From a virus: DNA of 23,618 nt. The position numbers and the translations under genes are program-made. Positions 3,143-23,618 of the stretch are shown here, piece by piece. Numbering within the stretch: the first letter of the stretch is position 1; each line of letters starts with the position of its first letter. The stretch is from the IMG/VR virus record IMGVR_UViG_3300031952_000152, positions 1 to 23,618 of that record. The stretch is one strand, 5' to 3'. The notes beneath the pieces are model-generated. The model worked only from the letters and a program-made list of their open reading frames with translations, ran no database searches and was not told where the DNA came from.

Positions 3143-6100
3143 CTACTGCGCCAGTCTTGGCGCGTATCCATACTGTTTCTCGAAGAGCGCCTGTGCCGCT
3201 TTCGTCTTCGCAGTAGAGGCGTAACCCCACTTGATGAGGATCGCGTTGATGTCAGGGTGCCGGCGGCGGTATATCTCCCGCACCTCCGAGAGCGTAGCCG
3301 TTACCTCATCAAGGAACTGCCACCGCGGGTCTTCGCTGGGGTCGATGCCCATTTGGACGGCTTCGAGTTGGACCTGATTGGTGTACTGGCGCAGGCTCAC
3401 GCCCCGAAGGGCTGGCTCATTCGCCGTCATGCGCTCCCAGAGCTGCTCCTCCAGTTCCCAGTAGTCGCTTATCTTCTCCTGGTCCAGCCGAAGCTCGCGC
3501 TCCAGCGGGTGTTCATCCTTGTGGAGCCGGTCCTGAATGGCAGTCCATGTAGCATCGCCGTACCTTTGCTTGAAGGCGGCGTCGATGCTGTCCTTTGCCT
3601 CTTGGTCATAGCGCCCCAGGTCGTCAGTGAGGCCGGGATCGCTGATGGCCTGCATGTAGTAGTTGTAGAGGATGCTGTTCCTGTTCTCAGCGGTCATGGC
3701 CTCGGGCTGGTTGAAGCCAGCGACATAGAGGGAGAACTGCCCTTCGGGGTCGTTCAGGCGCTCCCTCATTCCCCGCCGTTGGTCCCTGATTCGGGTGATA
3801 GCGTCCCTGACCTGACTGCCACTGACCCCCGGCTTGAACTGTTGGGCGACCTTCCCCATCTGCTCCTTGTACCAGTCCTTGACCTTCTCGTTCTCTATCT
3901 GGTAGAGGTGCCGCTGGCGGGTCATTTCTTGTGTTTGATCGTCGCGCAGGGGCTCCGAGATCTCGCTCAGTGCCGTGACCTCTTCGACGTCCACGCCGGC
4001 TATCTCGGCGGCTCGCTCGTAGGCCTTCGCTCTTTGCTCGTTGGTCAGGACGTAGTGCCCCCTGTCATCTACCGCCGTGAGCGGGTTCTGGCGCATCCTG
4101 AGCCTGTCATTGACCGTGCCCTCCGATACGCCGAGCTCCGTAGCGGCCTGCCCGCGCGCGGCCCTGATCTTCTCCAAGTTCTCCGGCCGGAAGCGGACGA
4201 CGCTTGCCTGCTGCGAGATGGCCCGGCGCAGGCTTGCCTCCCGCCGCGCCTCTGACAGTTGCGAGATGGCGTCCTGGTCGCGCTGGTCGGCCTTCGTGCG
4301 GATCTCCGAGGGGATAAGGCCCTTGTTGAGTAGGATCTGGTTCATGTCCCGCTCCAGCCAGGGGTCCCCGAAGAACCTCTGCTGGACGGCCGCAGCGCCG
4401 GGAAGTCCGGCGGCTGTTGCCATGTCAAGTGCGGTGGACGCCGGCGCCGGCAGCGCCTCCCCCAGTTCGCCTTGCATGATGCCCATTGGGAAACTCACCT
4501 GGGGCCCGAAGAAGAAGCCGAGCGAGGCGAGGGCGTCTTCGCCCTTCTGTACCGCGCCGAGCGCCCCGCCCTCTCGCGGTGGGAAGAACATGTAGTTCAT
4601 CGCCGCTGTTCCGGGTATCGGCCAGCGACGGACGTTGCCGAAGACCATGCCACGCCCAAGGCCAACCTCATACTCCGTACCCGGAACCCTGAATTGCCCC
4701 GCCTCTGGGTTGCCGACCATCGGCAGCACGACCTTCGCGGTGGCCGGCTTCGTCATAACCTGACCCGCCAGGTAAGGCCAGCGGCGGCTCTCATAGACCC
4801 AGTAGGGGAAGAAGTGCTGCATCGTGTAGTCAATCACGTTCCGGTCGTCATAGTTCACAAAGGCCCTGCTCATATCGTCTTCCGCTGCGGTGATGGCGTC
4901 CTGGTAAGCCTTGGCGTAAATCTGCCGCTTGTCGGTCGGCAGCTTCTCTAGGGTGCCGGCGATTCGCTCCAGGTATGCGTTCAGCACGGCCTCCTGGTCC
5001 TCGTTGAGAACGGGCTCGCGCAGTGTCTTCATGGCGTCGCGCTTGAACTCCGCGAGGCGCGCCGCCCGGTTGCGCTGCATCTCCAGCACGGCGTCCTTCG
5101 CGTCTGCGGCTGCCGACTCGCTGGTAACGGAGAGCGGCGTGCCGGCGGGAGTCTCCAGTGCTGCCGCACGCTCCGACCCCACGCCCAATTCCAAACTTCG
5201 CACCTTCGCCAATTGCGCCTGAGCTTCGTAGACAGCAGTGAGGCGCTCGGCGAGTTGCTCTTCTAGCTGTTGGGAATCGAGTGGCGGTCGACCCTCAGCC
5301 CGCGCCCGCTCCAACTGGGCATAGAGGCCGTCGATCTCTGCCTCTTTGCCGCGGAGCATCAGTTCCGCTTGGCCGATCGCGTCGTTGGGGTCAGGCGCTC
5401 CGTAGGCCTCTTCACCGAGCCCTATGGTCTTCTCAAGCTGGTCGTGGCGACGTTCTGCCGCCCTGAGTTCACCGGTCAGTGCCGCTTCCTGCTTCTTCCC
5501 CGCCGTTGACTCCTGCCAGAGCTCGTAGGCGTTATCTTGGGTGTACCGGCCTTGACCAGCGCGCTCTCCAAAGGCCTCGGTTATCCACTCGTCGGCACCC
5601 CACATCTCATCCTCGAAGTCGGCCCAGTAACGCGTCTCGGTCGGTGCCGCCCGCGCGATGCCGCGCCCGGTGGGGTCGGCGGGTTTGCCGAGTGCGGCGC
5701 TGACCTGGTCGATCTGCTCCTGGAGCGCGTCCCAGCGCATCGTGCCGACCGTGTCCGTCGTGTCAACCGCGGCTTGAAGGTCATACAGGGCTTCCAGTTT
5801 CTTCTTGCCCTTGAGGTTCGGCAGCGACTCCTCGAGCTGGGCGAGCCGGCCCTGTTCCTCGAGCGGCGTCCCCAGTTTTCGCTTGGTTATACCCTTGCCG
5901 CTGGTGAGGGCCCGCGGCTTCTGTTCCTCAATCTTGACGCCGCGCGCCCGCAGTTGGGCCACAAGGTTCGGGTCCCTGACCTCGACCTGTGTAACCGGCA
6001 CCATCGGCGCGCGGCCCATACGAAGGCTCGGACCGGCTTGGTGCCGGGGCCGGTACACCGTCCTCGTGTTGGCGAACCGCCAGGCGGGGTTGTCGCGGTC

Positions 6101-9100
6101 GACGAAGTTCTGGACGTCGTAGAGTTCCTGCCTGAGACGGTAGATCTCCGACTTCACGCCCTCGCGCTGGCCCTTGAGTTCCTCGACGCTCGGCGGCCTC
6201 TTGGCCTCCTCTGCGCGCCCGAGCGCCTTTTCCGTCTCCCGCGCCCTCTGCGCGGCGATGGCCTCTATCTCCTCCGGTGTTCCCTTCTCGAAGAGGCCGG
6301 CCTGTTGAGCGCGAGTGCCACCCAACTCCGTCTCCGTAGCAAACGTGTCCTCCTGTACCATCTGCCCTTGCTCATCGAAGCGCAGGCGGCCGACTGTCTC
6401 CGGCGCCGCGGGTTCCGGCTTTGCGATCGGTTCCTGCTTGAACCGCATGGACTCTTTCTGGTACGCGCGCTCCGCCTTTACGGTCGGCGCCACGGTCCGG
6501 CGCTCGGCGTAGAAACAGGACTGGTAGAAGTCTTCGAGCGCCTTGTCTATCTCACCGTTGGCCTTCTCGTTGATTGCCTGGAGCGCACCCCGCATCTCGT
6601 ACACGTCCGCCGGGTCGACGCGGGCGACGTTCTTGCGCTGGAAGGCCCAGAACTTATCGGCGTACTCAACCGCCTCGCGGTGTCGGTTGAGCCGGAGTTG
6701 CGATATGAGCTTCGCGTTCTTCTGCGCGAGGCTGTTGAGTCCCGGCCCACCCTGCGCCCGCGATACCTGGTCGGTCCTCTTTACGATCCTGTCGAACCCG
6801 TCCTCGATCAGCGTCCGGGCCCGCTCGAGGCCGCTCCGCCATTCGTCCGCCGCCTCAGCCACAATCGGCGAGTGGAAGCCGTGTTGCTCTAGGAGATCCT
6901 GGAAGGAGTCCGTGAGTTCCCGCTCGTAGGCCCTGGTCGAGTATTCGAGGTTGTGAGCCTCTTTCAACGCGGCGAAGATGTCGGCCATGTTCTTCATCCG
7001 CATGTTGGGCAGGTGGTCGATGATGTCCTCGATACGGACGGCGATCGCCTCCGGCGTTGAGGCGTCCACCACCCGCTGCATCTCGTCCATCTTCGAAAAG
7101 ATCCCCTCAAAGCGCCGACCCAGACCCCCCACCCGGACGGCGTCGCCGTAGACCTTGAGTACACTCGGCGAGAGGTCGCTGTACTTCTCCATCAGGGCCA
7201 TCGCGCCCCGCCGGTTGAACTCCCGTCGATTGACCATCGTGGTCAATCCGCGGATCGCCTCCGGTCCGTTCGCCATCGCCGTCGCCACATGCACATTGAC
7301 GGCCTTGCGGACATGCTCCAACTCGGCCGGCAGTTGCTTGTTGGCGATGTCGAGGACTTCACGCATTACCGCGTCGTCCTGTAGGCCGGACGTCCGAAGG
7401 TTCTCCGCCAGCCGGGTACGGATACGCTGGATAGCGTAATGGGTGCGCTGGGCGGCGTCCGTGCGCCGTGAGACGTCCACAAAGTAGCCGCCTGCCCACT
7501 TGTAGGCAGACTTCAACCAATTAGGGCCCGTGACGTCCTTGAGTCCCATCGCTCCGCCGACAGTCTGGCCGGACTGGACTATCCGCCCCAGCTCGGGGGC
7601 ATGGAAGCCCTTTATCATGTTCCCAAGTGCGGCGCCGCCGTCCATGCCGATAGACGATTCGCCGGCGACCTGACGGTAGGCACCCTCCAAGACGTTGAAC
7701 AGCGGGAAACCCGCAAAGGCCAGGATCGCGTTTGACATGGGCCGGACGAAGTAAGGTTCGAGGGTCTTCCTGTAACCCGCGATGTACGTCCTGTCCATGC
7801 CGTCGAGGATGTAGCCGCGGAGAGCTCTCTGGGCCTGATTGGTGAAGAGGGCATCCTTCACGCCGACTGGCCCGCGTTTCTGCACGACCTCCTTGGTCAG
7901 GCCGAGTATCTCCCCGAACTTCGGGCGGCCCATCTTGCCGAGTTCTTCCGTCGTCGGCGCCTTGCCCGCCTTCATCATCAGGTCGACGCCGAAGTTGCGG
8001 ATGTAGGATGTCCGGCGTTCCCGGACCGCCGTGTCGATCGCCTTCCGCGCCCGAGCCGCCGTCGTCCTGCCCACCCAGTTTGCGAAGTCGAGGGGGTTCT
8101 TGCTGGCGATATTCTGCATCATCGGCACCCAGTTCTCGGGATCGCCGTCTGCCATATCCCCGAGAATGGCGCTGATACTGCCGTACTCCGGGTCGTTCCG
8201 CCCCGCAACAAGTAGGTGGTGGGTCAGCCTGGCGTCCCCCGTCATCGTGTCGACGCCGTAGGCCGCTCCGTGCCGGTCGGCCAGTACCCTCACGTTGTCA
8301 AAGGCCGCGTCCGCCAGCTCAGTTACCTTGTACTCGGTGGGTTTAGGCAGACCACGCCATCCCTTCGCCAGGGCGCCTCCGACCTTCTGAACAGGCCAGT
8401 CGGCAGCCTTCATGCCCACCTCTTCTCCCTTGCCGATAGCGCGCGTGATAGCGGCCAGCACCCCCGGCTTCCCAGCCGCCTTGATGCCAGCGTTCTTAAG
8501 CAGACCCCACCCGACGTAGCTCGCGGGGTGTGCCGCCATCTCGGTAATGAACTTCTCGACGTCACCCTGACCGGCGTACTCCTTCTTGGCCTCTTCGGTG
8601 GTCATCGTTCCGGCGTGGGCCGTCTTCGCCCCGGCCACTTGCAAGGCCTTCCCCATCCGTTGAAAGTTGGCGGGCCACTGCGTAGGGAGAGGGTGCGTTA
8701 CTCCAGCCGCACCGGCGCCCAAGATCCCCGCAACGCCTTCACCTACCAGCCCCAGGCGTCCCGCGACCGGCTTGACGCCTTCCTCCTCGACCTTGTTGTA
8801 GCCCGCTGCGAGTGGCTTTAGGGCGATGCCGGCCCCCTTCAATAGGGGCTTGGTGGCCGGGCTTGTCACCTGGGTCGCTACGTCTAGCCCCGTCTTGACT
8901 AACCCGCCGAGATCCCCGAGGAACCCGCCGCCGCCCTGCGGTTTCGTCTGCGGCACTGTCCCCGTCTGTTCCTGCGGGCTGAGGAGCTGCTGCACGATGG
9001 GCGACTGGAGAATGTCGTTCGAGATGCCACCTGTAGGCGGCTGGAGCTGCCCGCTTTCGACCATGCGGGCGTACTGGGCCGCGATGCGCTTCCGGCGTTG

Positions 9101-9163
9101 CGTCCTCAGCTCATCGAGACGGCTGAGCCAACTGTTTTGTCCCCAGCTTCCCCAAGTGCTCAT
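3143..9163 (-). CDS. Giant 2006-aa putative internal virion / DNA-ejection protein
   Basis: One uninterrupted 6-kb frame between portal and scaffold. Its ATG lies 2 nt after the preceding stop (TAGATATG), so it is translationally coupled. A proline/glutamine-rich N-terminus is followed by a Gly/Ala-rich hydrophobic, possibly membrane-active stretch (about 78-155). A mostly helical region follows, with a hydrophobic segment at 478-494. Residues ~960-1400 are charged coiled-coil-rich. A conserved-looking aromatic block around 1448-1465 (FFPYWVYESRRWPYL) precedes a Gly/Pro-rich hydrophobic region to ~1595. The last 400 residues are charged helices with an HTH-like LGVSEGTVNDRL at 1677-1688. I recognise no catalytic motif. 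Size, amphipathic segments and head-cassette position fit an internal protein injected with DNA, or a 'large polyvalent protein'; this is inference. Confidence 0.6.
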   Translation of the reverse strand: MSTWGSWGQNSWLSRLDELRTQRRKRIAAQYARMVESGQLQPPTGGISNDILQSPIVQQLLSPQEQTGTVPQTKPQGGGGFLGDLGGLVKTGLDVATQVTSPATKPLLKGAGIALKPLAAGYNKVEEEGVKPVAGRLGLVGEGVAGILGAGAAGVTHPLPTQWPANFQRMGKALQVAGAKTAHAGTMTTEEAKKEYAGQGDVEKFITEMAAHPASYVGWGLLKNAGIKAAGKPGVLAAITRAIGKGEEVGMKAADWPVQKVGGALAKGWRGLPKPTEYKVTELADAAFDNVRVLADRHGAAYGVDTMTGDARLTHHLLVAGRNDPEYGSISAILGDMADGDPENWVPMMQNIASKNPLDFANWVGRTTAARARKAIDTAVRERRTSYIRNFGVDLMMKAGKAPTTEELGKMGRPKFGEILGLTKEVVQKRGPVGVKDALFTNQAQRALRGYILDGMDRTYIAGYRKTLEPYFVRPMSNAILAFAGFPLFNVLEGAYRQVAGESSIGMDGGAALGNMIKGFHAPELGRIVQSGQTVGGAMGLKDVTGPNWLKSAYKWAGGYFVDVSRRTDAAQRTHYAIQRIRTRLAENLRTSGLQDDAVMREVLDIANKQLPAELEHVRKAVNVHVATAMANGPEAIRGLTTMVNRREFNRRGAMALMEKYSDLSPSVLKVYGDAVRVGGLGRRFEGIFSKMDEMQRVVDASTPEAIAVRIEDIIDHLPNMRMKNMADIFAALKEAHNLEYSTRAYERELTDSFQDLLEQHGFHSPIVAEAADEWRSGLERARTLIEDGFDRIVKRTDQVSRAQGGPGLNSLAQKNAKLISQLRLNRHREAVEYADKFWAFQRKNVARVDPADVYEMRGALQAINEKANGEIDKALEDFYQSCFYAERRTVAPTVKAERAYQKESMRFKQEPIAKPEPAAPETVGRLRFDEQGQMVQEDTFATETELGGTRAQQAGLFEKGTPEEIEAIAAQRARETEKALGRAEEAKRPPSVEELKGQREGVKSEIYRLRQELYDVQNFVDRDNPAWRFANTRTVYRPRHQAGPSLRMGRAPMVPVTQVEVRDPNLVAQLRARGVKIEEQKPRALTSGKGITKRKLGTPLEEQGRLAQLEESLPNLKGKKKLEALYDLQAAVDTTDTVGTMRWDALQEQIDQVSAALGKPADPTGRGIARAAPTETRYWADFEDEMWGADEWITEAFGERAGQGRYTQDNAYELWQESTAGKKQEAALTGELRAAERRHDQLEKTIGLGEEAYGAPDPNDAIGQAELMLRGKEAEIDGLYAQLERARAEGRPPLDSQQLEEQLAERLTAVYEAQAQLAKVRSLELGVGSERAAALETPAGTPLSVTSESAAADAKDAVLEMQRNRAARLAEFKRDAMKTLREPVLNEDQEAVLNAYLERIAGTLEKLPTDKRQIYAKAYQDAITAAEDDMSRAFVNYDDRNVIDYTMQHFFPYWVYESRRWPYLAGQVMTKPATAKVVLPMVGNPEAGQFRVPGTEYEVGLGRGMVFGNVRRWPIPGTAAMNYMFFPPREGGALGAVQKGEDALASLGFFFGPQVSFPMGIMQGELGEALPAPASTALDMATAAGLPGAAAVQQRFFGDPWLERDMNQILLNKGLIPSEIRTKADQRDQDAISQLSEARREASLRRAISQQASVVRFRPENLEKIRAARGQAATELGVSEGTVNDRLRMRQNPLTAVDDRGHYVLTNEQRAKAYERAAEIAGVDVEEVTALSEISEPLRDDQTQEMTRQRHLYQIENEKVKDWYKEQMGKVAQQFKPGVSGSQVRDAITRIRDQRRGMRERLNDPEGQFSLYVAGFNQPEAMTAENRNSILYNYYMQAISDPGLTDDLGRYDQEAKDSIDAAFKQRYGDATWTAIQDRLHKDEHPLERELRLDQEKISDYWELEEQLWERMTANEPALRGVSLRQYTNQVQLEAVQMGIDPSEDPRWQFLDEVTATLSEVREIYRRRHPDINAILIKWGYASTAKTKAAQALFEKQYGYAPRLAQ

Positions 9164-11284: not shown

Positions 11285-13188
11285 TACACTGCCCTCGCGG
11301 GTTTAGGCGGGCCTCGGCGGGCGAGTTGACGAAGGATGAGGTCAATTTCCTTCGTGCTACCCGGCGCCGGCGCGGGATTCGGCCGTATGCGGCCAGCCAT
11401 AGGCGCAAGACCTTCGGCTGGAGGCACTGGCGCCCCGATACCGGCCCCCGGCGGGGCAAGGCCCGCCCCACCCATTCCTACTGCTGCCATCTGTTCCGGC
11501 GTCGGGCCGGCACCACCGGCACGCTCTGTCTGCTTGGCTTCTTCGGCGACCATGATCTCGTCGAGGTTCCAGCCGTACTCTTCCGCAGCCTGTTGTGCGA
11601 GGAGCTGTTGCACCGGCTGGCCGAACAGTGCCATGTCGCGGAGTACCTTCTTGAGAGTGCCGCTGGCGTCCTCGTTGCCCAGACCCTCTTCCTGGAGCTG
11701 CTCCCACGGGATGACGTGCTGGATGAACTCTTTGATGAACTCGCTCCGGCGGGTGATCTGGTCTTGCGGCAGATTGGGGTCGAGGACGGCTTGGACGGCG
11801 TAGTAGCCGCCTATCTCTTCCGCTGAGATGCTGCCCTTCCACCAGCCGTTCTTGTAGGGCCCGGCGACTTCTACGTCGTCCTCAACGTACTCGGCGAGCA
11901 TTTGCCAGTGCTCAAAGGTCTGTTGGAGCGCGATCTGAGTGGCCTGCTTGAGCGGGTCCATGATGAGCCGGGCCACGCCGAGGTATATCTGCGACTGGTA
12001 GGCCGTGTTCTCTCCCTGACGGAGTCCGCGCGCTACCGGCGGCAGGGTGTCGTCGTCGATGGCGGTCGAGAGGTGTCCGAGCTGCTCGAAGAGTTCGCGG
12101 GGGAAGCGTCCGACGTCGATCGCGTTCAGCTTCCAGCCCTTGTATTGGTTCAGGTCGCCGGGGGCAACGCTCACCTGGGGGTTCTGGTCGGCCTCGTTAT
12201 CGGGGATACTGGAATCGCGGAGGAGTTCCCAGACGCGCCAGGCCGTGCCGTGGAGGATCGCCCCGATCTGTGTCTCACGGCGGGCTTCTTCCTCGAGCAT
12301 GGATTTCACGATGTAGAGAAAAGACCTGTGAACGACCTCCGGCCCGGCCATCGTCGCGTTGTACTGACTGGCGACCGGCGCCGGCTCCCCGAAGCTGGGG
12401 AGTATCCAGGCATAGGGGACGAACCCCATGTCGTTGCGCCTGTTCAGGTATTCGCCGCCGTTCACGAGGATGATCTTGCGTTCGGGGCTCGTGAACTCGG
12501 TCCAGCGCACCAGTCCCGTCGCCGGGTTGTTGTTGGCTACGCCGGCGGACACTCCTATGGGGATCGTCCTGCCGAGCATCCTCTCCGCCCGCGACTTGGG
12601 AATTCTGACGTCCTCGATCACATAGCAGCCATCGGGGTCGGGCAGCAGGATCAGGGGGTCGGGGGAAACGCAGGCGATGGGGCAACCGCCCGCCTGGATC
12701 CGCTGCCAGCGACGCAGGCGGAACTCATAGGCATCGTCGGTCTCGCCATCCATCCGCTCCGGCTCCGGCATCCAATAGTCGGGGTCGAGGCTGTTCTTGA
12801 AGCATCCCAGGCCGCGAACGACGGCGTAGAAGACGGAGCCACGCACGGGCGGCGGCGTCAGACGTTGGGCCGCGTAGACCGGCAATTTGTTATAGATAAC
12901 CCGCAGCCACTTTTCCCTCTTGTCGGCGATCTTCTGCCACTTGTCGCCGTCCGACTGTGGCGGACAGTACAATCGCAGGTTCCCGGACGTAATGTGCGAG
13001 ACCATACGGTCGCACTGGCGCCGACCCGTGCCAGGGATGACGACGGGAAATTGCTTTGGGGCCTTGACGACAAACTTGAGGTTGTACATGCGGTCCAGCA
13101 TCATCATCTCGCTGTGCATCGTCGAGTAGTACGTGCGGAGCCCGTTGGCCGCGCTGAGGACCTCGCTAGCGGTTGATGGAAGCGACAT
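11284..13188 (-). CDS. Portal protein
   Basis: A 634-aa protein starting at ATG 13188, with a GGGAGGAG SD about 5 nt upstream; a longer in-frame start exists inside terL but would be unsupported. It directly follows terL (23-nt overlap). The order terS-terL-portal and the size are standard for the dodecameric head vertex through which DNA is packaged and ejected. Visible features: an N-terminal helix-rich region, a central wing-like alpha/beta region with SPERKIILVNGGEYLNRRN, a long helical stretch ending FEHWQMLAEYVEDDVEV, then basic-aromatic PYKNGWWKGSIS. The last ~110 residues are Gly/Pro/Ala-rich (barrel or disordered tail). Identity comes from context plus general resemblance to phage portals. 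Confidence 0.85.
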   Translation of the reverse strand: MSLPSTASEVLSAANGLRTYYSTMHSEMMMLDRMYNLKFVVKAPKQFPVVIPGTGRRQCDRMVSHITSGNLRLYCPPQSDGDKWQKIADKREKWLRVIYNKLPVYAAQRLTPPPVRGSVFYAVVRGLGCFKNSLDPDYWMPEPERMDGETDDAYEFRLRRWQRIQAGGCPIACVSPDPLILLPDPDGCYVIEDVRIPKSRAERMLGRTIPIGVSAGVANNNPATGLVRWTEFTSPERKIILVNGGEYLNRRNDMGFVPYAWILPSFGEPAPVASQYNATMAGPEVVHRSFLYIVKSMLEEEARRETQIGAILHGTAWRVWELLRDSSIPDNEADQNPQVSVAPGDLNQYKGWKLNAIDVGRFPRELFEQLGHLSTAIDDDTLPPVARGLRQGENTAYQSQIYLGVARLIMDPLKQATQIALQQTFEHWQMLAEYVEDDVEVAGPYKNGWWKGSISAEEIGGYYAVQAVLDPNLPQDQITRRSEFIKEFIQHVIPWEQLQEEGLGNEDASGTLKKVLRDMALFGQPVQQLLAQQAAEEYGWNLDEIMVAEEAKQTERAGGAGPTPEQMAAVGMGGAGLAPPGAGIGAPVPPAEGLAPMAGRIRPNPAPAPGSTKEIDLILRQLARRGPPKPARAV

Positions 13189-14686
13189 CTCTCTCCTCCC
13201 CCTGCCACGGGCCGTAGGCTGAGCGCGGCGCTCTCGACTTCTGTGGCTTTCTGACGTAGCCGAACTCGTGGATGAGCAGATACCCGACTGCCTTACAAGC
13301 GTCGTTGAACTTGTCGACCGGCCTGTCGGACCGGGCGTTACCATCGTTGTCGGTGGGGTACACGTAGGCACCGCCGACGTCGACGTGTGGCGACTGGGGG
13401 CCCGCACCCATCTCGCAGATGAAGCCCTGACAGACGGGGTTGACCTGCATCCGCGGCTGCTCGGTAACGGGGTCGAGCATGAGGAAGGTGTCGACTCTCT
13501 CTATCCCGTCCTCAATCCCCACCCTGTTCGTGAAGACCGGCAGGTTCGTTGCGTCGTGCCAAACCTCAGCGCAGGACTGCTCGTGGTTCACGGTGCGCTG
13601 CCGCCCGGCGATGTCCATGACGATACCCTCGACGTCCTTCCACCAGGGTTTTTGCCGGCAGATGTTGATCGCCATCATGTTCGTGAGGCCGGTGTGGTAG
13701 ACGGGTTCGTCGAAGACGCGGCAGACATCGTCGCTGGTGAACTGGACGGCTTCCACGGCGTAGGCGTGAGCTCGTCCGGGGTCGATCGCGAGCCAAACGG
13801 GGAGTCCGGGGATGTAGGTACACTCGCTCGAGACGTGGATGTGGTTCTTGAATAGCTTGAACACTAGGCCTCTCGGTGGCGCCGGCACTGCGCCGACGCG
13901 CTCCAGGAAGACGTCCGGCTTGTAGTGCTCCTCGAGGATCTTGATCTCTGGGTCATCACGTCCTCCGGGGTAGGCGTGGGGGTTGGCCCAGCTCGGTAAT
14001 GTGAAGGAGACAACCCCCCGCGTGTTGTCGGTCAGACCCATCGTGTAGTATTCGGGCAGCCATCCCACCGACCCCTCGAAGGTGCCTACCGCGTTCACCC
14101 ACCCGCCCGTCTGCGACACGCGCCCGAGAACACGGGTGAAGGCGTCGTGTACAAGGCGGCCCGGCTCACATATCAGCGCCCCGTGGAAGAAGACCCGCCT
14201 GATACGAAGCGGGTCCTTGGCGCTCCAGGTGTCGATGAGGGTCCCACTCTTGGTTACGACCTTCCATCGGCCCTGATCCGGCTTTGCGAGCGACCCCGGC
14301 TTGATCATCCCGAGCTTGGAGAGCCCGTCGACCAGGTACTCGAACTCTTCGCGGGTGTCGTCGAACTCCTGCGCGACGAGTCCATAGTGCAGGAACGGCT
14401 CGCCGCGGCCGAACGTGTCCGGCGTCAGTATGGTGTAGGGCAGGAGATCCTCGCCGGCTGACCGGCTCTTCCCCCCGCGTTCGCCGCCGGAGACGATCTC
14501 AATCTTTGCCATCGCCGTGTGGAACGGCAGGGCAGCCTCCGTTGGCTGATATCCCGTCTCCTTCCACACCGGCAACTTCGCCTCGAGCGGCAACCGCAAC
14601 GAGGGCCACGCCCATCGCCTCAAAAACAGCTCTTGTGGAGGGGCTAAGGTCGTGCTCACTGCCTCCCTTGTCCAGTCCGAGTACAC
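13166..14686 (-). CDS. terL: Terminase large subunit (packaging ATPase and nuclease)
   Basis: A 506-aa frame taken from GTG 14686. Starts at 14569 (GTG) or nearby TTG codons would shorten the overlap with terS; the conserved domain begins near residue 44. The ATPase has an atypical Walker A, SGGERGGKS (66-74, Lys73), after the GYQPTEAALPFH entry motif. The likely Walker B is LICEPG (161-166), with Glu164 as candidate catalytic residue and Cys163 where Asp is usual. GTFEGS (201-206) fits the coupling motif. The RNase-H-like nuclease shows aspartates in LAIDPGRA (Asp302), IVMDIAG (Asp358) and FNDACKA (Asp462). It drives ATP-powered DNA packaging into the procapsid and cuts the concatemer. It overlaps terS by up to 188 nt and portal by 23 nt. 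Confidence 0.92.
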   Translation of the reverse strand: MYSDWTREAVSTTLAPPQELFLRRWAWPSLRLPLEAKLPVWKETGYQPTEAALPFHTAMAKIEIVSGGERGGKSRSAGEDLLPYTILTPDTFGRGEPFLHYGLVAQEFDDTREEFEYLVDGLSKLGMIKPGSLAKPDQGRWKVVTKSGTLIDTWSAKDPLRIRRVFFHGALICEPGRLVHDAFTRVLGRVSQTGGWVNAVGTFEGSVGWLPEYYTMGLTDNTRGVVSFTLPSWANPHAYPGGRDDPEIKILEEHYKPDVFLERVGAVPAPPRGLVFKLFKNHIHVSSECTYIPGLPVWLAIDPGRAHAYAVEAVQFTSDDVCRVFDEPVYHTGLTNMMAINICRQKPWWKDVEGIVMDIAGRQRTVNHEQSCAEVWHDATNLPVFTNRVGIEDGIERVDTFLMLDPVTEQPRMQVNPVCQGFICEMGAGPQSPHVDVGGAYVYPTDNDGNARSDRPVDKFNDACKAVGYLLIHEFGYVRKPQKSRAPRSAYGPWQGEERDVASINR

Positions 14687-15215
14687 GCGCCGTCAGGTCG
14701 GCGGCCTTCTCTTTGTCCAGGAAACCCGGCGCCCCCAGGCCCTCGAGTAGAGCGTTGACCAGTAGGGCCTCCAGCTCCTCCCGTTGCGCCGCGACGGTAT
14801 CTATGCCCTGAGCCGCCAGTTGCGACTCGGTCGCCATGAAGGAACCTACGGGGTGCTCCGGCTTGAGCCATCGAGTCGCCGTCCGCCGGTCGATGCCGGC
14901 CCTTACCGCCGCCCGGCCGGGTTTCCGGCCGTTTGCCAGGTAGAACGTCAGAAAAAGGAGCTGCTTGGGCTCCAGTCCCTCGGCGCCATACCTTGCCAGG
15001 TGGCCGATCTTCGCGGGCGACCGCCGGACTAACTCCCGATCTTGATTGTGTCCTGCCCCGGCAGCTTCGGCGACTTGGTCGGCGCTACGTTGTCGGGGTT
15101 CCCCTTCTGTGTGAACGCGAGCCCCTTGTGCACTGTGCTCGGCGCCGGGCCGCCCCCGGGCTTTCCCGTTCCCTCTGCCATTTCCAGTCCCTCCTTTGCT
15201 ACTTCTCGCGGCCAT
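14499..15215 (-). CDS. terS: Terminase small subunit (start uncertain)
   Basis: Up to 238 aa from ATG 15215, which has AAGGAG 8 nt upstream. The core begins near residue 64 (RRSPAKIGHLARYG). It contains an HTH-like helix pair, NGRKPGRAAVRAGIDRRTAT (95-114), typical of small terminases that recognise pac or cos DNA, then helices for oligomerisation and terL contact. The order before terL supports the call. The first ~60 codons are suspect: they fully overlap a 50-codon frame with its own SD and stronger G/C bias at the third codon position. No canonical start exists in the terS frame between the end of that small ORF and the conserved core. The real N-terminus could be the long form, a frameshift product or a non-ATG start. 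Confidence 0.78.
   Translation of the reverse strand: MAARSSKGGTGNGRGNGKARGRPGAEHSAQGARVHTEGEPRQRSADQVAEAAGAGHNQDRELVRRSPAKIGHLARYGAEGLEPKQLLFLTFYLANGRKPGRAAVRAGIDRRTATRWLKPEHPVGSFMATESQLAAQGIDTVAAQREELEALLVNALLEGLGAPGFLDKEKAADLTARVLGLDKGGSEHDLSPSTRAVFEAMGVALVAVAARGEVAGVEGDGISANGGCPAVPHGDGKD
15029..15181 (-). CDS. 50-aa ORF overlapping the 5' part of terS in another frame
   Basis: ATG 15181 has an ideal AAGGAGG SD about 7 nt upstream. The frame ends TAG at 15029-15031. The product, beginning MAEGTGKPGGGPAPSTVH and ending GQDTIKIGS, is small, Gly/Pro/Lys-rich and probably disordered. Its third codon positions are mostly G/C, clearly more so than the overlapping terS frame over the same bases. 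It may be a separate small protein or the true N-terminal part of terS joined by a -1 shift. No classical slippery heptamer is visible. Confidence 0.45.
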   Translation of the reverse strand: MAEGTGKPGGGPAPSTVHKGLAFTQKGNPDNVAPTKSPKLPGQDTIKIGS

Positions 15216-15290: not shown

Positions 15291-15614
15291 TCAGGGGTTC
15301 GAGAGATGGGGCTGGTCTACCCCCTCTACCCCCTGCTCCCGGCGTAGTTGTGTCCGCCGCCAGAGCCAGAACAGACCTTCCTCCAACTTCGTTATGGCGA
15401 GAGCGTTCTCGCGGCACATGAACCTCCCGCGCTGAAACCCGCGGAGTCGGTTTAACAACACCTCGAGCAGCGCCTCTATCGTGGTGCCGTTGATGCCCTC
15501 CGGCTCCGGGCCCGCCTGGAACTTGATGTACCCACAGTCCAGGTCCCCGCGCTTGAGTTCAACCCGCGCCGGACTCCCATCCATCGCCTCCCGGTCGCTG
15601 GTCCCGTCTGCCAT
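15291..15614 (-). CDS. Putative Acb2/Tad1-like cyclic-nucleotide sponge (anti-CBASS/anti-Thoeris)
   Basis: A 107-aa protein with AGGAGG about 7 nt before ATG 15614. An N-terminal beta-like part containing DCGYIKFQAGP (26-36) and a short helix (LLEVLLNRLRGFQ, 49-61) lead to the key stretch CRENALAITKLEEGLFWL (67-84), then WRRTQLRREQGVEG. The pattern 'RE-x-ALAxTKLEEAxxW' is what I recognise as the Acb2/Tad1 hairpin domain, common in small phage proteins. Characterised members bind cyclic di-/trinucleotides or gcADPR and so block CBASS or Thoeris defence; this copy's ligand is unknown. The GVEG tail is typical of a subfamily usually annotated hypothetical. It is placed upstream of terS. Confidence 0.6.
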   Translation of the reverse strand: MADGTSDREAMDGSPARVELKRGDLDCGYIKFQAGPEPEGINGTTIEALLEVLLNRLRGFQRGRFMCRENALAITKLEEGLFWLWRRTQLRREQGVEGVDQPHLSNP

Positions 15615-15645
15615 CTATGACCTCCTGACCGTTATGTCTGACCCC

Positions 15646-15891
15646 TTACTTCCGCCTCTTCTTCGAGGCCTTCGCCGTCTTGAGCCCCTCGTGTATCAGC
15701 TCCCGTGGGCTCATCTCTTCCCGCTTCTTCGCCGGCGCCCCGGTCGGCTCCCACCCGTGCTCCACCCCCCGCAAGAGGTTCATCTGCGCCTGCGCCTTCG
15801 CCGGCGTTGTCGCCTTCGCGTGTACCCGCCCCGTCGCCTTGTTCGCGACCTTCACCCGGCCACCCCTGGCTTTCCGCGTCCCGTATGGCAT
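15646..15891 (-). CDS. Small basic 81-aa phage protein, unknown function
   Basis: ATG 15891, with GGAGGGG about 8 nt upstream, is preferred over an upstream in-frame start because of this SD. The N-terminus MPYGTRKARGGRVKVANKAT, followed by AKATTPAKAQAQMNLLRGVEHG, resembles a recurrent family of very short phage and virus proteins of unknown role (pattern 'basic strand - TTxxKAxxQxxLL'). The rest is Lys/Arg-rich and ends KASKKRRK. Nucleic-acid binding is plausible from charge. It is the first gene of the leftward packaging/structural operon. Confidence 0.6.
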   Translation of the reverse strand: MPYGTRKARGGRVKVANKATGRVHAKATTPAKAQAQMNLLRGVEHGWEPTGAPAKKREEMSPRELIHEGLKTAKASKKRRK

Positions 15892-15974
15892 CTCTCGCCC
15901 CTCCGTGCTAAAATAAGGGCAGCCGCGACGGTGGATGCCGCCCGGCTGCATGACATCGAAAGGAGCACCCTCCG
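15892..15974. promoter_or_regulatory. Divergent intergenic region between the packaging operon and the HNH gene
   Basis: This 83-bp gap separates the leftward 81-aa gene from the rightward HNH gene, so at least one promoter is expected. A small AT island with TAAAAT (15909-15914), a -10-like hexamer for the plus strand, stands out in GC-rich sequence. No good -35 hexamer sits at the right distance. AAAGGAG near 15965 is the SD of the HNH gene. Confidence 0.35.
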
Positions 15975-16478
15975 ATGTGCCCTCAGTCTACCACGCCAGC
16001 CCCCGAGCCCCTAGCATCCGAAGAGTGGCGTCCTATCACCCTCTACAAGGACTGGGAGGGTGTCTACTCGGTCAGCTCCCTCGGCCGCGTCCGCCGCGAA
16101 ACCGCCGGCCAGGGCGCCCAGGCGGGCCACATTCTCAAGCCGAATACCGGCCCCGGCGGTTATCTCCGCGTCCTGCTCTCCTACCAGGGCCAGCAGCGCT
16201 ACTTTCCCATTCACCGGCTCGTTGCCTTTGCCTTCGGCCCCACAACCGACCCCCTGACATTCCGACTCACCCAGGTCAACCACATCAACGGCGATAAGGG
16301 CGACAACCGCCCCCTCAACCTGAGGTGCGCCCGCCGAGGTTCGCACCGACCTGCCGAACGACCGCACACCGGAGGCCGGTCGAACCGCGCTATCCTCCAC
16401 CGCCTTCTCGACCTCCAGAGTGCCGGTCCCATCGGCGCGTTGCCCTGGGAAATCGACCCGGTCGCCGCCGAAGTTTAG
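15975..16478 (+). CDS. HNH endonuclease with NUMOD4 motif
   Basis: A 167-aa protein starting at ATG 15975, with AGGAG about 9-10 nt upstream. EEWRPI (16-21) followed by YSVSSLGRVRR (31-41) is the NUMOD4 DNA-binding motif of homing-type endonucleases. The HNH part has His80 (FPIHRLVAFAF) and VNHINGDKGDNRPLNL (101-116), with the catalytic His103 and the metal-binding Asn-rich loop. After the HNH core the protein is short and Arg-rich and does not show the usual following helix, so the C-terminus may have diverged. Such enzymes nick or cut specific DNA and often behave as selfish free-standing genes. The orientation against the neighbouring operon and the position beside a repeat array fit insertion or an origin-linked role. 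Confidence 0.85.
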   Translation: MCPQSTTPAPEPLASEEWRPITLYKDWEGVYSVSSLGRVRRETAGQGAQAGHILKPNTGPGGYLRVLLSYQGQQRYFPIHRLVAFAFGPTTDPLTFRLTQVNHINGDKGDNRPLNLRCARRGSHRPAERPHTGGRSNRAILHRLLDLQSAGPIGALPWEIDPVAAEV

Positions 16479-16500
16479 GCTATGGTCGGTTTTGTCAGAG

Positions 16501-16522
16501 CCCCGCGCGGGGGGTACACCCC
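16501..16522 (+). terminator. GC-rich palindromes after the HNH gene
   Basis: A self-complementary 12-mer, CCCCGCGCGGGG (16501-16512), lies 22 bp past the HNH stop and overlaps a second small hairpin, GGGGT-AC-ACCCC (16511-16522). There is no T-run, so termination is only plausible. Confidence 0.4.
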
Positions 16523-16624
16523 ATAAATGACCCCACAGATACGAGGGTCTTATACGATACATCAGTGATCTTTTTTAACATACTGACAGAACATGACAAA
16601 ACCTAGGTTCTGTCAGAGAGCCTT

Positions 16625-16740
16625 TGACATATCCTAAACTTCTCCACATCTGGGAGACCCCTCCGCTGCCGCCGTAGACTAATCTTCCCGTATCCACTCT
16701 CTTATATATACCCCCCCCTAACTGCTGACATATCCTAAAC
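16625..16740 (+). repeat. Exact 15-bp direct repeat TGACATATCCTAAAC within the array
   Basis: Identical copies lie at 16625-16639 and 16726-16740. They begin with the same TGACA as the TGACAAAACC units but then diverge. The two copies flank a segment with TATATATA and a run of eight C (16711-16718). A second class of binding site, or decayed units, is possible. Confidence 0.7.
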
Positions 16741-16961
16741 CTCGACTGGGATGGAGTTGACAAAACCCTCCGCCGCGAATCTGACCCGAGGCCTCCGCCG
16801 GCCGTTGCCCGCATGACAAAACCCCCCAGTTTCGTCATGACAAAACCCCCCTCGCTCTGACAAAACCTCCGCGGAAAGGGCCGGAAATGCACACGGCGGG
16901 TGTAAGAGGGGGAGTAATTTCATGGTGTCCGCTACCTCCCCTTACGGAGTCCCATTCGTCT

Positions 16962-17321
16962 TTAGGGGGCCCCATCACTGCCATCGACTCTCTGCCCCCC
17001 GGCCTCTCCCCCTGTCCCACGGTGCCCGTCAGCACCCTCTACCCTTGCCGCGCGCATAGCTCGCAGAAGCACCCAGTCCTCCTGGGCATCATCAAAGAGC
17101 GGGTGGTCCTCCTCCTCGCCCCCTGCCTCTACCTGCCCGCTCCCGAGCGTCTGACACCACCGCACGTCCTCGAGGGCCAGCACCGGCAGCACCGGCAGTA
17201 CCTCAACCACCACGCCGATATCATCCCCGAGGGCCTCGGCTATGTCCTCCCCACCCCCCGGGATGCCCCGCCTTGCCCCCACACTGCCCAGCAGCCGCCG
17301 CAGCCAGCTTAGCCCTACCAT
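16962..17321 (-). CDS. Small acidic protein (119 aa), unknown
   Basis: Taken from ATG 17321, which overlaps the end of the upstream 75-aa ORF by 7 nt, a coupling arrangement; a longer form from ATG 17414 (GGAG upstream) also exists. The codons are G-rich at position 1 and G/C-rich at position 3, as expected for coding, while the opposite-strand frame lacks this. The product starts MVGLSWLRRLLGSV (possible amphipathic helix). It continues with acidic stretches, GGGEDIAEALGDDI and a VLPVLPVLALEDV segment, then a Glu/Asp/Gly-rich tail. No family is recognised. A real gene is plausible but unproven, because antisense frames stay open easily in GC-rich DNA. Confidence 0.4.
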   Translation of the reverse strand: MVGLSWLRRLLGSVGARRGIPGGGEDIAEALGDDIGVVVEVLPVLPVLALEDVRWCQTLGSGQVEAGGEEEDHPLFDDAQEDWVLLRAMRAARVEGADGHRGTGGEAGGQRVDGSDGAP

Positions 17322-17542
17322 CGCACCAGCCTTGACCGAGCCACCCGCGCAGCACGAGCCGCCCGCCTCTTCTCTACCCGCCGCGACCTCAACCACGCCC
17401 GCCACCAGCGCCATGACCGCACTCTCCACCAGCGCCAGATACGAGCCACGAGAGCCACAGGAGACAACAAGAGCCCGCCGAGCAGTGAAACACCACCCGC
17501 CGGGCCCACGGAGCCGTCAGAATGAGCCCTCAGAGCCGCCAT
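17315..17542 (-). CDS. Small membrane protein with Arg/Trp-rich tail (75 aa)
   Basis: ATG 17542 has a GGGAGG SD 5 nt upstream. Residues ~19-35 (LLGGLLLSPVALVARI) form one hydrophobic segment. It is followed by an exceptional cationic-aromatic tail with WRWWR written twice within 14 residues and then many arginines. The type (short hydrophobic helix plus Arg/Trp tail) recalls membrane-active peptides and small phage lysis or host-interaction proteins, but no family is recognised. It is the first gene of a short leftward unit that diverges from the DUF2958 operon and is coupled to the 119-aa ORF. A spurious frame cannot be excluded. Confidence 0.42.
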   Translation of the reverse strand: MAALRAHSDGSVGPAGGVSLLGGLLLSPVALVARIWRWWRVRSWRWWRAWLRSRRVEKRRAARAARVARSRLVRW

Positions 17543-17589
17543 TTGTACCTCCCGACGACAAACAGCGCCACCGAGACGCCGTCAGTCTA

Positions 17590-17618
17590 ATTCTACGCCA
17601 GGGATGCAAGCGGCTTGC
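17590..17618 (-). promoter_or_regulatory. Possible leftward -10 box with adjacent palindromic operator
   Basis: On the minus strand TAGAAT (plus 17590-17595) matches a -10 box at 5 of 6 positions, about 48 bp before ATG 17542. A perfect palindrome, GCAAGC-G-GCTTGC (17606-17618), sits where the spacer or -35 would be. No good -35 hexamer is seen, so a regulated or activator-dependent promoter is conceivable. Confidence 0.35.
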
Positions 17619-17638
17619 GACAAATGCGACAGTCCGAC

Positions 17639-17698
17639 GCACACGCGCAAAACAACAAAGGGCGCACACGCGCGAGGTAAGAAGCAGAGCACACGCGC
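17639..17698. repeat. Three GCACACGCGC repeats at exact 25-bp intervals
   Basis: Identical 10-mers start at 17639, 17664 and 17689. Spacers are A/G-rich and not conserved. The last copy ends 27 bp before the TTGACA box at 17726. The exact period and the divergent-promoter position suggest repeated protein binding (activator, repressor or initiator). Confidence 0.75.
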
Positions 17699-17725
17699 CA
17701 CCCGAAAATAAAGATGCACGCCCCC

Positions 17726-17769
17726 TTGACAAACGGATGGGAAGGGCCGATACTGGTACGGTATACCAG
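17726..17769 (+). promoter_or_regulatory. Sigma70-type promoter with overlapping inverted-repeat operator
   Basis: A perfect -35 box TTGACA (17726-17731), a 17-bp spacer and GATACT (17749-17754) as -10. Overlapping the -10 and start site is CTGGTA (17753-17758) inverted as TACCAG (17764-17769), with GGTATACC as an inner palindrome. A repressor bound there would block the promoter. It lies 53 bp before ATG 17822 and would drive the whole rightward operon. Confidence 0.7.
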
Positions 17770-17821
17770 ACGGAGGGCGGGGATTACACCCGCCGAGTAC
17801 AAAGGAAGGAGAAGGCGAGAG

Positions 17822-18151
17822 ATGGCAGACCTAGAGTGTAGCACCTTCCAGCGCCGGCCGTGCTACCGCTACATCCGCGAGTCGGACAAGATGCCAACCC
17901 TGGCGGAGGGCGACGATGGCGACGGGATAGCCCGCGTCAAGCTCTTCAACCCAGCCGGCGCCGGGACCTGGTATCTGAGCGAGTACGACCCGAAGAGCCG
18001 CCGGGCCTTCGGCGTCGCAGTCATCCAAGAGCGCGAGTTCGGATATGTCGACATGGCGGAGCTCGTGGCGTTCCGGGATAGCAGATTCGGCCTGCCGATA
18101 GAGCGGGATCTCTACTGGACGCCCCGGCCGCTGGTGGAGTGTGGGGGATGA
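17822..18151 (+). CDS. DUF2958-family protein
   Basis: A 109-aa protein from ATG 17822. The in-frame start further upstream would place the promoter inside the gene and is rejected. GGAGAAGGCG lies just before the ATG. The core ARVKLFNPAGAGTWYLSEYD (37-56), then AFGVAVI, EFGYVDMAELVAFR (72-85) and GLPIERDLYW (90-99), matches the DUF2958 pattern 'VKLFxPxGxxTWxxxExD ... ELGYxxLxEL ... GLxIERDLxF'. Members occur widely in phages and plasmids; the biochemical role is not established to my knowledge. It is the first gene after the promoter/operator and overlaps the next ORF by 4 nt (ATGA), so it heads a polycistronic unit. Confidence 0.82.
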   Translation: MADLECSTFQRRPCYRYIRESDKMPTLAEGDDGDGIARVKLFNPAGAGTWYLSEYDPKSRRAFGVAVIQEREFGYVDMAELVAFRDSRFGLPIERDLYWTPRPLVECGG

Positions 18152-18306
18152 GCCGCCGGGCACCGTGGGACATCGAGGTCGCCGGGGGCGCTGCCTGCGT
18201 CGGGCTGTCCCTGGCGGTCGGGACCGGCGCACCGGCGCTGTCGCTGGGCCTCCTCCTCGTGGGGCTGGTGGCGCTGGGGCTGGGAGTAAGGAGTATCGGA
18301 CGATGA
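18148..18306 (+). CDS. Two-helix membrane protein (52 aa)
   Basis: ATG 18148 overlaps the DUF2958 stop (ATGA), implying coupled translation. After MSRRAPWD come two hydrophobic segments, about residues 9-26 and 29-47 (SLGLLLVGLVALGLGV), separated by a Gly/Ala/Pro turn. The protein ends in the basic RSIGR. This is a small helical-hairpin membrane protein; holin-like or host-membrane-modifying roles are possible but nothing specific is recognised. It overlaps the next start by 4 nt. Confidence 0.6.
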   Translation: MSRRAPWDIEVAGGAACVGLSLAVGTGAPALSLGLLLVGLVALGLGVRSIGR

Positions 18307-18703: not shown

Positions 18704-19135
18704 ATGAGAGACCTCGGGACTGACGTGAGGGAAGCGGTCCGGGCCACCAAGCTCGACCAGGTGAAGGCCGGCCACTATCAGCCGACATGGAAGCCGGCGA
18801 TCGCAGTCTTCGGCGAGTGCCACGGCGACGCCGACCGCCCCCACGACTCGCACCTGTGCAGCTTGATGTACATGGGCACCGAGCGAGCCGACGACGACAC
18901 CGCGATCCACCAGTACAAGCATGGAATGACCCGCCGGTATCTGTGCATCGACGACGCCGGCGTCATCTGGACCAGAGCGGGCGACGACGGCGCGCGCTAC
19001 TGGCAGCGGGCTGCCCACCCCGGCGCCGAGATCCTGCGGGCCTTCGGCGTGGAGTGCCAGGCCTACGATGAGGAGTACAAGGCGGAGCGCGACCGCCACC
19101 TCCGGGCCGCCGGGTACGGCGTGATCACGGGCTAG
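18704..19135 (+). CDS. 143-aa protein of unknown function
   Basis: ATG 18704 is preceded by GAGAAGGCG, the same element used by two other genes of this operon. The protein is soluble and rich in charged residues, His and Cys. It shows WKPAIAVFGECHGDADRPHD (29-48), HLCSLMYMG, HGMTRRYLCIDDAGVIWTRA (73-92), a GARYWQRA segment and a C-terminal helix. Several aromatic-flanked Cys/His residues could bind metal, but no recognised motif is formed. No transmembrane segment or signal peptide is seen. A second hairpin starts on its stop codon. Confidence 0.65.
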   Translation: MRDLGTDVREAVRATKLDQVKAGHYQPTWKPAIAVFGECHGDADRPHDSHLCSLMYMGTERADDDTAIHQYKHGMTRRYLCIDDAGVIWTRAGDDGARYWQRAAHPGAEILRAFGVECQAYDEEYKAERDRHLRAAGYGVITG

Positions 19136-21002: not shown

Positions 21003-21260
21003 TCAGCTCGGCCTCTCTTCGCTAGGGCCCGGCAGGTCGGCGAGCTTGTGGACCGGCCAGGCCTCCATCTTGTCGGCGTGCTCTCGGGCCGCCTTCGACA
21101 GCGCGGGGTCGCCCCCAGCCCTGTCGTTGAGGGTCGCCCAACAGCGGACGACGTCCGACCCGAGCACGTCCTGGCCCCGGATGAGGAAGACCGGCTCGTC
21201 GGCGGGGATCTTCCCCTCGGGGTCTTGGATACGGTCGTAGTCTTGCCTTGGGTGGATCAT
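21003..21260 (-). CDS. Conserved 85-aa phage protein of unknown function
   Basis: ATG 21260 has AAAGGGGG 4 nt upstream. The sequence MIHPRQDYDRIQDPEGKIPA followed by DEPVFLIRGQDVLGSDVVRC matches a frequent small phage protein pattern ('IPxDEPVFLxRGQD') known to me only as hypothetical. The second half is helical and ends MEAWPVHKLADLPG. Third codon positions are strongly G/C-rich, showing that this is the main coding frame even though the CsrA-like frame stays open across it. It is probably translated by coupling, as its start lies within the CsrA frame. Confidence 0.75.
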   Translation of the reverse strand: MIHPRQDYDRIQDPEGKIPADEPVFLIRGQDVLGSDVVRCWATLNDRAGGDPALSKAAREHADKMEAWPVHKLADLPGPSEERPS

Positions 21261-21435
21261 AGTTCCCCCTTTCGTGTGTCAGCTCCTCACGGAGCACTTT
21301 CACATCTTCCGGTGCCTCTATCAGCAGCTTGGCCTTGAGCGGACCGGGGCGGCAGTTGTCGACCCGGATGACGATCCGGTGTTCGCCGGCCTCGATGACG
21401 ATGGCTTCCCCGGCCCTACGGTTGAGGATCAGCAT
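21022..21435 (-). CDS. csrA: CsrA-like RNA-binding translational regulator with overlapping readthrough extension
   Basis: ATG 21435 follows GGAGGAAGGAG, a strong SD. Residues 1-55 match CsrA. MLILNRRAGE keeps Leu4, Arg6 and Arg7 of the first RNA-binding strand, and APEDVKVLREEL keeps the second site with Arg49 (equivalent to Arg44 of the E. coli protein) and Glu50. CsrA dimers bind GGA motifs near SD sites and block or alter translation. The usual family size is 60-70 residues, but no stop occurs after the domain. The frame continues to 137 residues, with an Arg/Pro/Gly-rich tail that entirely overlaps the 85-aa gene in another frame. The tail looks like incidental readthrough or overprinting. 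The start overlaps the methyltransferase stop by 7 nt. Confidence 0.82.
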   Translation of the reverse strand: MLILNRRAGEAIVIEAGEHRIVIRVDNCRPGPLKAKLLIEAPEDVKVLREELTHERGNYDPPKARLRPYPRPRGEDPRRRAGLPHPGPGRARVGRRPLLGDPQRQGWGRPRAVEGGPRARRQDGGLAGPQARRPAGP

Positions 21436-21992
21436 GGCTCCTTCCTCCAGTCCCACCCGCCCCACAGTGGGCGCCCGAGCTGTCCCCGGCGCCAGACGAC
21501 GATCACGCTGTCCCAGGTCGCCGCGGATGGCGCGCCCTTGTAGCGGACGCGGCCCTTGAGCAGCCGGATCTCCGTCGCCTGCATGACCCACTGGTGCCAC
21601 CACCCGGCGCTCGTGCTGGCGGGCAGGAGAGCCACCACAAGCTCCATACGGCCGCAGGCGACCTCCGTGTAGCACTTCTCGACCCACTTCTCGATGACGC
21701 CTCTCCCGTAGGGCGGGTTGACGTAGGCGCTCCCGCCACACGTGGGCAAGCGCATAGACGTTCCGGGGCCTCTTACGGTGTGGGTCTGCCACAGGCCCCA
21801 CCAGGGCAGGTTCAGCCCGTCCTCACCGAGAGGACTGCCGGGCCCGTACCAGTCGTCGGCCTTCTTATTCTCCGCGTTGGCGCAAGGGTCGAGGCCGAAG
21901 GCGCCGAACTCCCGCCGGAGGACGTCAATGAAGGCGTCGGGCGTTTCCCAATCGTCGCGGCTCTTGGCGCCGGGGTTACTCATTCGACCCAT
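21429..21992 (-). CDS. Phage DNA N6-adenine methyltransferase (Dam-like, PF05869 type)
   Basis: 187 aa from ATG 21992 (GGAGG 7 nt upstream). The alternative ATG 21983 overlaps the upstream stop as ATGA. The order of motifs fits the small phage adenine methyltransferase family: SRDDWETPDAFIDVLRREFG (11-30), GLDPCANAENKKADDW (33-48), YVNPPYGRG (90-98) with catalytic NPPY at 92-95, VALLPAST and RLLKGRVRY, then WDSVIVVW. It should transfer a methyl group from SAM to adenine N6 in DNA, usually to protect phage DNA from host restriction or mark it. An unusual insert with THTVRGPGTSMRLPTCGG (about 71-88) precedes the NPPY strand. It is coupled to csrA and to the DUF5131 gene. Confidence 0.88.
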   Translation of the reverse strand: MGRMSNPGAKSRDDWETPDAFIDVLRREFGAFGLDPCANAENKKADDWYGPGSPLGEDGLNLPWWGLWQTHTVRGPGTSMRLPTCGGSAYVNPPYGRGVIEKWVEKCYTEVACGRMELVVALLPASTSAGWWHQWVMQATEIRLLKGRVRYKGAPSAATWDSVIVVWRRGQLGRPLWGGWDWRKEPC

Positions 21993-23490: not shown

Positions 23491-23618
23491 TCGCTCTCAT
23501 CTTCCTCGGCTTCACGATGGTGACGTACTTCTCCAAGATGGGGCTGAACACCTCTCGCGGGACCAGGAAGACGGCCACGTTGCGGAACACCTTACCGTCC
23601 CGCACCTCCGCCAGAAGG
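23474..23618 (-). CDS. C-terminal 47 residues of a gene cut by the window edge
   Basis: The minus-strand frame enters at 23618 and ends TAG (23474-23476), overlapping the next gene's start by 17 nt. The visible product, LLAEVRDGKVFRNVAVFLVP followed by REVFSPILEKYVTIVKPRKM, ends with a basic tail. Codon third positions are G/C-rich as in true genes of this window. The family cannot be judged from this fragment. Confidence 0.6.
   Translation of the reverse strand, partial: LLAEVRDGKVFRNVAVFLVPREVFSPILEKYVTIVKPRKMRANGRTA

Follow-up and report, generated by a model that had tools for sequence, protein, structure and literature searches.

In SaPI Rep and SCCmec Cch2, a C-terminal domain binds iterons that lie just downstream of the protein's own gene (PMC7581432). 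The pRN1 origin is found downstream of the replication gene ORF904 and is functional also when relocated (PMC4234260). For DUF3987, a role as a helicase of mobile elements has been predicted (PMC5862659), and the PICMI primase, defined in its search model by DUF3987 together with DUF5906, is required for replication (PMC10803314). This domain of unknown function, DUF3987/YfjI, occurs widely among phages, satellites, islands and plasmids and is tied to the replication of satellites; its origin sites are unnamed in the literature that we searched: we found no paper containing both DUF3987 and iteron, and the papers containing the letters of the tandem unit described below are, judged by title, not on replication.

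Here we describe an array of short repeats in a linear virus record of 23,618 bp (65% GC overall), the whole of which was analysed and is called the window. The array is probably a replication origin. The case for this draws on a family-wide link between gene and repeat unit and on a gene in the relative G001, not on the window by itself.

Repeat array and its surroundings in the window

Six exact copies of TGACAAAACC, alongside TGACAGAAC variants, lie within 16488–16867 (Table 1), in agreement with an earlier note on this DNA that had counted at least six. Allowing up to one mismatch gives 7 sites against 0.47 expected from shuffles and, in the search of the rest of the record that the note had proposed, none outside the array. 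The units fit TGACARAAC (or NNNCARAA). TGACARAAC has eight exact sites, all inside 16489–16866 (380 bp), and none in the rest of the record; 2,000 Markov-simulated records contain a mean of 0.17 such sites each, and never more than 2 within 400 bp. The copies with one to three mismatches that the note also listed stand only in part, because one unit has a single mismatch (16606, minus strand) and three-mismatch copies are at chance level (103 sites in the record versus 93 expected).

The 22-bp dyad and the AT-rich patches that it had reported in this GC-rich genome are both present, the dyad at 16594–16615 and the patches as the two 100-bp windows with the least GC in the record, which start at 16550 (36% GC) and 16666 (48% GC). 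The arrangement at 16584–16615 comprises two tandem units and one inverted unit, not two facing two, and the array falls below a strict 2+2 double-dyad score (the gap scores 28, about the null level). The array is also atypical in that its units are scattered across 380 bp. In 9-mer repeat content the array gap is the richest part of the window (143 repeat pairs per 400 bp versus a median of 36), and it holds a second repeat family, TGACATATCCTAAAC(T/C)TC. The sequence GAAGTTTAGGCTATG at 16470–16484, which overlaps the HNH stop codon, is a 93% complementary arm to this second family. DnaA boxes (TTATNCACA) do not occur above chance, and an Rfam search of 15500–18200 returned no match.

Table 1. 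Features of the window and of the relative G001 (coordinates prefixed L047)
Feature	Coordinates	Strand	Remarks
Large terminase	13166–14686	leftward	
Small terminase	14499–15215	leftward	called by position
NUMOD4/HNH homing-type endonuclease	15975–16478	+	left neighbour of array; Pfam PF07463, PF13392; PHROG HNH
Unit TGACAAAACC	16488–16497	−	exact match; TGACARAAC unit family
AT-rich stretch	16515–16745		candidate unwinding element; both lowest-GC 100-bp windows start here
Unit TGACAGAACA	16584–16593	+	member 1 of tandem pair (10-bp step) with unit at 16594
Unit TGACAAAACC	16594–16603	+	exact; member 2 of tandem pair and left arm of 22-bp dyad
Inverted unit TGACAGAACC	16606–16615	−	1 mismatch; right arm of dyad
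Second repeat family, copy 1	16625–16642	+	TGACATATCC at 16625
Second repeat family, copy 2	16726–16743	+	TGACATATCC at 16726
Unit TGACAAAACC	16758–16767	+	exact match
Unit TGACAAAACC	16814–16823	+	exact match
Degenerate unit TGACGAAACT	16828–16837	−	head-to-head with unit at 16838
Unit TGACAAAACC	16838–16847	+	exact match
Unit TGACAAAACC	16858–16867	+	exact match
DUF2958 protein	17714–18151	+	right neighbour of array; PF11171
Supported gene further right	18704–19135	+	codon-position substitution bias versus G001
Right end of window	23507–23618		95% identical to G001 beside its DUF3987 gene
G001 DUF3987 gene	L047:2823–4028		stop ~90 bp beyond match to right end of window

Two relatives were located by TerL: G001 (IMGVR_UViG_3300032053_000364, 29.7 kb) and L039. 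Substitutions relative to G001 concentrate at third codon positions in the HNH gene and in 18704–19135, and do so more weakly in DUF2958. The genes left of HNH, terminases included, run leftward, and plus-strand genes extend from DUF2958 onward; HNH reads toward the array, and DUF2958 and 18704–19135 read away from it. All three are on the plus strand, contrary to the convergent flanking genes of the earlier note. The segment 16888–17100 is probably non-coding, because it carries frame-breaking indels relative to G001. The only promoter-like site upstream of DUF2958, at 17726–17754, is more than 850 bp from the array and would place the start of DUF2958 further in than 17714. Elsewhere in the window, the minus-strand ORF at 21022–21801 contains a CsrA-like sequence, MLILNRRAGEAIVIEAGEHRIVIRVDNCRPGPLKAKLLIEAPEDVKVLREEL, seen by eye and present also in G001 (L047:6593–7180), and the minus-strand ORF at 3143–9163 is, at 2,006 aa, of exceptional length for the record.

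The syntenic gap of G001 contains two exact units (L036:2427 and L036:2470), with no others in 18.7 kb (L047). In L039 this gap lacks TGACARAAC, weak GGGCAACAG repeats are found there instead and repeat content is not outstanding, so the note's suggestion to look for the 10-mer in relatives bears out for one of the two. The TGACARAAC unit is not conserved throughout the phage family. The note's proposal to align the region across relatives failed, as the array gap aligns with neither G001 nor L039. Tandem GGGCAACAG and an inverted copy take the place of TGACARAAC at L039:3199–3220 and 3260–3273; these repeats hint weakly at a changed specificity or iteron swap.

DUF3987 winged-helix genes and their repeats

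The earlier note, rightly, saw the window as lacking a known initiator gene and advised looking for a Rep-like gene outside it. The likely initiator gene in G001, which encodes a DUF3987 helicase-like protein, maps past the position matching the window's right end (Table 1). This gene was observed in G001 only, because the window stops short of it; the window phage's own copy would lie outside the record. The G001 protein (401 aa; PF13148, E 4.4e-15; PHROG label DNA primase) belongs to the YfjI family and has a C-terminal GGRP winged helix, the sequence ending ...TTKGGRPSAVYRRVLPWST. Adjoining genes give one weak DnaB N-terminal match and one RusA match. AlphaFold2 predicts a winged helix for the last 85 residues (pLDDT 82.5), and its full-length model is poor (pLDDT 45) except in this domain. 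Foldseek matches to the domain are weak, with MarR-family regulators, a ROK repressor and Z-alpha domains among the best. When a winged-helix profile that excluded the G001 protein was run over ~26 kb of G001, this protein was the top hit (E 0.0034; next 0.79); the A4 profile matches it with E 0.036, indicating a divergent member. The G001 array lies ~6.6 kb from the gene (L047:10605 versus 4028), beyond ~350 bp of its 3′ end.

Repeat arrays beside such genes were collected by motif, from viral contigs with two spaced 10-mer units and from a bacterial genome scan; because they were selected by motif, these loci suggest a gene link and do not test it. In one viral contig the array is inside the 3′ end of a DUF3987 gene with a GGRPxxxY winged helix, its units read in frame as ALTKPP (L015), and in another it is at or in the 3′ end of a gene ending with such a winged helix (L045). 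A Prim-Pol type GGRP gene is followed right after its stop by six exact units, three opposed to three (L044), and a GGRP winged-helix gene from the bacterial scan directly by seven (L164). The pair pattern of the 10-mer is not enriched across viral contigs (31 versus 42 for the reversed control). The triple pattern gives 60 versus 12 for the reversed control, although many of the 60 have a span of 38–40 bp in common and could represent a single family. In bacterial contigs the triple scan found mostly ordinary tandem repeats, with a C-terminal GRP wing motif beside the array only in L164. PF13148, which misses Prim-Pol forms such as L044, detected DUF3987 above the cut-off in two of the first 31 records scanned and weakly in a third. 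No motif array accompanies DUF3987-like phage genes that lack the GGRP wing (PaMx41, Tiera, Kuura and others). Units of the form TGACAAAAC also occur within genes of other types, a Phage_rep_O gene (L054:3899–4846, minus strand, read LTKPS/DKT) and a replisome-organiser-like gene (L049:7214–8182, minus strand).

For a gene-first test we searched 369 genomes of one class with a C-terminal winged-helix profile (sample 1), and 398 Pseudomonadota genomes with a second profile that included the sample-1 winged helices (sample 2). All six new loci of sample 1, inspected by eye before any score existed, have a 9-mer dyad after the gene, with TGACARAAC-like units in four (L310–L313) and variants in two (L314, L315). 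We then devised a de novo double-dyad score, which seeks a tandem pair of 9-mers opposed to an inverted pair, and applied it to both samples. With profile, score and region limits chosen in the course of the analysis and not beforehand, and against block-wise dinucleotide shuffles that are only approximately dinucleotide-preserving, 16 of 20 Pseudomonadota loci beat 40/40 shuffles as well as a coding control region of the same locus; the remaining 4 gene-first hits, and several from Actinomycetota, were not significant. L320 and L330, from a single genome, are almost identical, which leaves 15/19 independent loci with a significant double dyad at the gene's 3′ end.

In the gene-first test TGACARAAC at up to one mismatch has 35 occurrences, versus 8 for the reversed control. 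The units are mostly TGACARAAC or a variant, and a CARAA-like core is kept in many variants. The array of L313 reads TGACAAAACTGACAAAAG...CTTCTGTCAGTTCTGTCA and that of L310 TGACAGAACTGACAGAAC...GTTTTGTCAGTT; variant units include CTACARAAC (L314) and CCATCAAAA (L317). L313 has a second double-dyad array of close likeness at 2849–2902, ~1 kb downstream of the first. In 396 Actinomycetota genomes, scored with the exclusion of three loci in which the gene was not located, L338, L339 and L342 beat the shuffles, and NGCCAAAAC tandems are visible by eye in L337, L340 and L341, among others.

Plasmids show the same association. An Acinetobacter plasmid has a tandem unit pair facing an inverted pair 6 bp after the yfjI stop. 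An 18.4-kb Streptomyces plasmid, annotated with a Prim-Pol gene and YfjI and, in its full annotation, without a terminase, carries 10 exact TGACARAAC sites, all within ~260 bp of the yfjI stop. On a Bartonella plasmid a variant unit, CTTCAAAAC, was identified by eye, with a score not above every shuffle; RepC is encoded there as well, and YfjI may therefore not be the plasmid's sole initiator. The yfjI gene of E. coli CP4-57 has no array.

Competing readings of the array

We think it reasonably likely that the array is an iteron replication origin recognised by a DUF3987 protein through its winged helix, the candidate initiator gene lying just past the window's end in G001. The winged helix would bind the tandem and inverted TGACARAAC units, as the association of gene and unit suggests. 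The helicase domains would then gather on the array and melt the AT-rich stretch near the 16594–16615 dyad and ahead of the direct repeats at 16758–16867. We infer both the reading of the units and the opening of the AT-rich stretch from SaPI Rep, Cch2, pRN1 and the prediction that DUF3987 is a helicase. The helicase would load, and a primase or DnaB partner might begin synthesis, the gene with the DnaB N-terminal match adjoining DUF3987 in G001. Against this reading speak the ~6.6 kb between array and gene, the sighting of the gene in the relative only, the null-level dyad score, the missing unit in L039, the divergence of the G001 winged helix and the gene-first hits with no significant dyad, as well as the existence of 10-mer arrays as ordinary bacterial tandem repeats, the unenriched pair pattern and the lack of DnaA boxes above chance. 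Among the options of the earlier note (origin, partition site or packaging site), an origin is the best supported, and partition and packaging gained no positive evidence.

The array lies upstream of a group of plus-strand genes, tandem and inverted short sites also fit repressors, and the predicted winged helix resembles MarR and ROK regulators. The units could on these grounds be operators, bound by a repressor, by DUF3987 or by another winged-helix regulator that controls the HNH/DUF2958 region. We regard this as unlikely, since 16479–16900 contains no promoter-like site, the only one before DUF2958 being distant, and since the units of other loci follow a stop codon or sit in the 3′ end of a helicase gene rather than at a recognised promoter. 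Operator or stoperator arrays would moreover be expected to have sites at promoters genome-wide, whereas here all sites fall in one 380-bp region.

An origin might instead be served by another initiator, such as one resembling lambda O or a replisome organiser, in which case DUF3987 would be a bystander. The occurrence of the 10-mer inside the Phage_rep_O and replisome-organiser-like genes, and the distance of the array from the DUF3987 gene, are consistent with this, but we consider it quite improbable: we saw no gene of this kind in the window or among the G001 ORFs beside DUF3987, the winged-helix profile gives no other candidate in ~26 kb of G001, and in other replicons the unit has a strong association with the winged helix of DUF3987/YfjI proteins. 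A packaging (pac/cos) or partition site has very little chance of being correct: the small terminase and HNH genes are within ~2 kb left of the array and the motif matches in L009, L012 and L015 are near terminase genes, but the L012 match is a plain 24-bp tandem repeat, the L015 array sits in a DUF3987 gene, the same arrays occur on plasmids and at genomic loci (the Streptomyces plasmid being free of a terminase), arrays of the gene-first samples follow the helicase gene and not a terminase, and no parB was noticed.

Beyond the origin read by DUF3987 proposed for this phage, the evidence is evenly balanced on whether winged-helix DUF3987/YfjI proteins form a large undescribed class of self-recognising initiators in phages, plasmids and islands. 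The origins of such a class would be short double dyads built from 9-bp units, in which the CARAA core is conserved and the 5′ triplet varies and determines specificity; in some phages they would have been relocated away from the gene. Units beside DUF3987/YfjI genes in many replicons suggest what the protein binds, and a specific 9-bp unit at a fixed position makes both the start site and its reader testable. The unit also offers a sequence handle for locating origins in uncultured phages.

Comparison with known systems

The pRN1 protein ORF904 is similar in combining primase, helicase and winged helix and in having its origin downstream of the gene, but that origin has no iterons and consists of a 100-bp stem-loop (PMC4234260). 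SaPI Rep and Cch2 resemble the present candidate as initiator helicases with an origin directly downstream, as in most sampled DUF3987/YfjI loci. They differ in domain type, the SaPI Rep types, Cch and Cch2 being DUF927 or Primase-Cterm/D5-like whereas the candidate is DUF3987; here, in addition, the unit is of 9 bp with a CARAA core and the array is ~6.6 kb from the gene. Origins of the lambda O type share a winged-helix initiator, iterons and an AT-rich element, and their iterons are sometimes intragenic (as in the Phage_rep_O gene of L054); lambda O is not a helicase, whereas the G001 candidate itself carries a helicase-like domain. The α protein of phage P4 is likewise a primase–helicase with a C-terminal origin-binding domain, although it is a Toprim and SF3-like protein with a different iteron, GGTGAACA. 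The type I iterons of P4 ori/crr parallel the array described here in being octamers in both orientations, with an AT-rich core and sites away from the gene.
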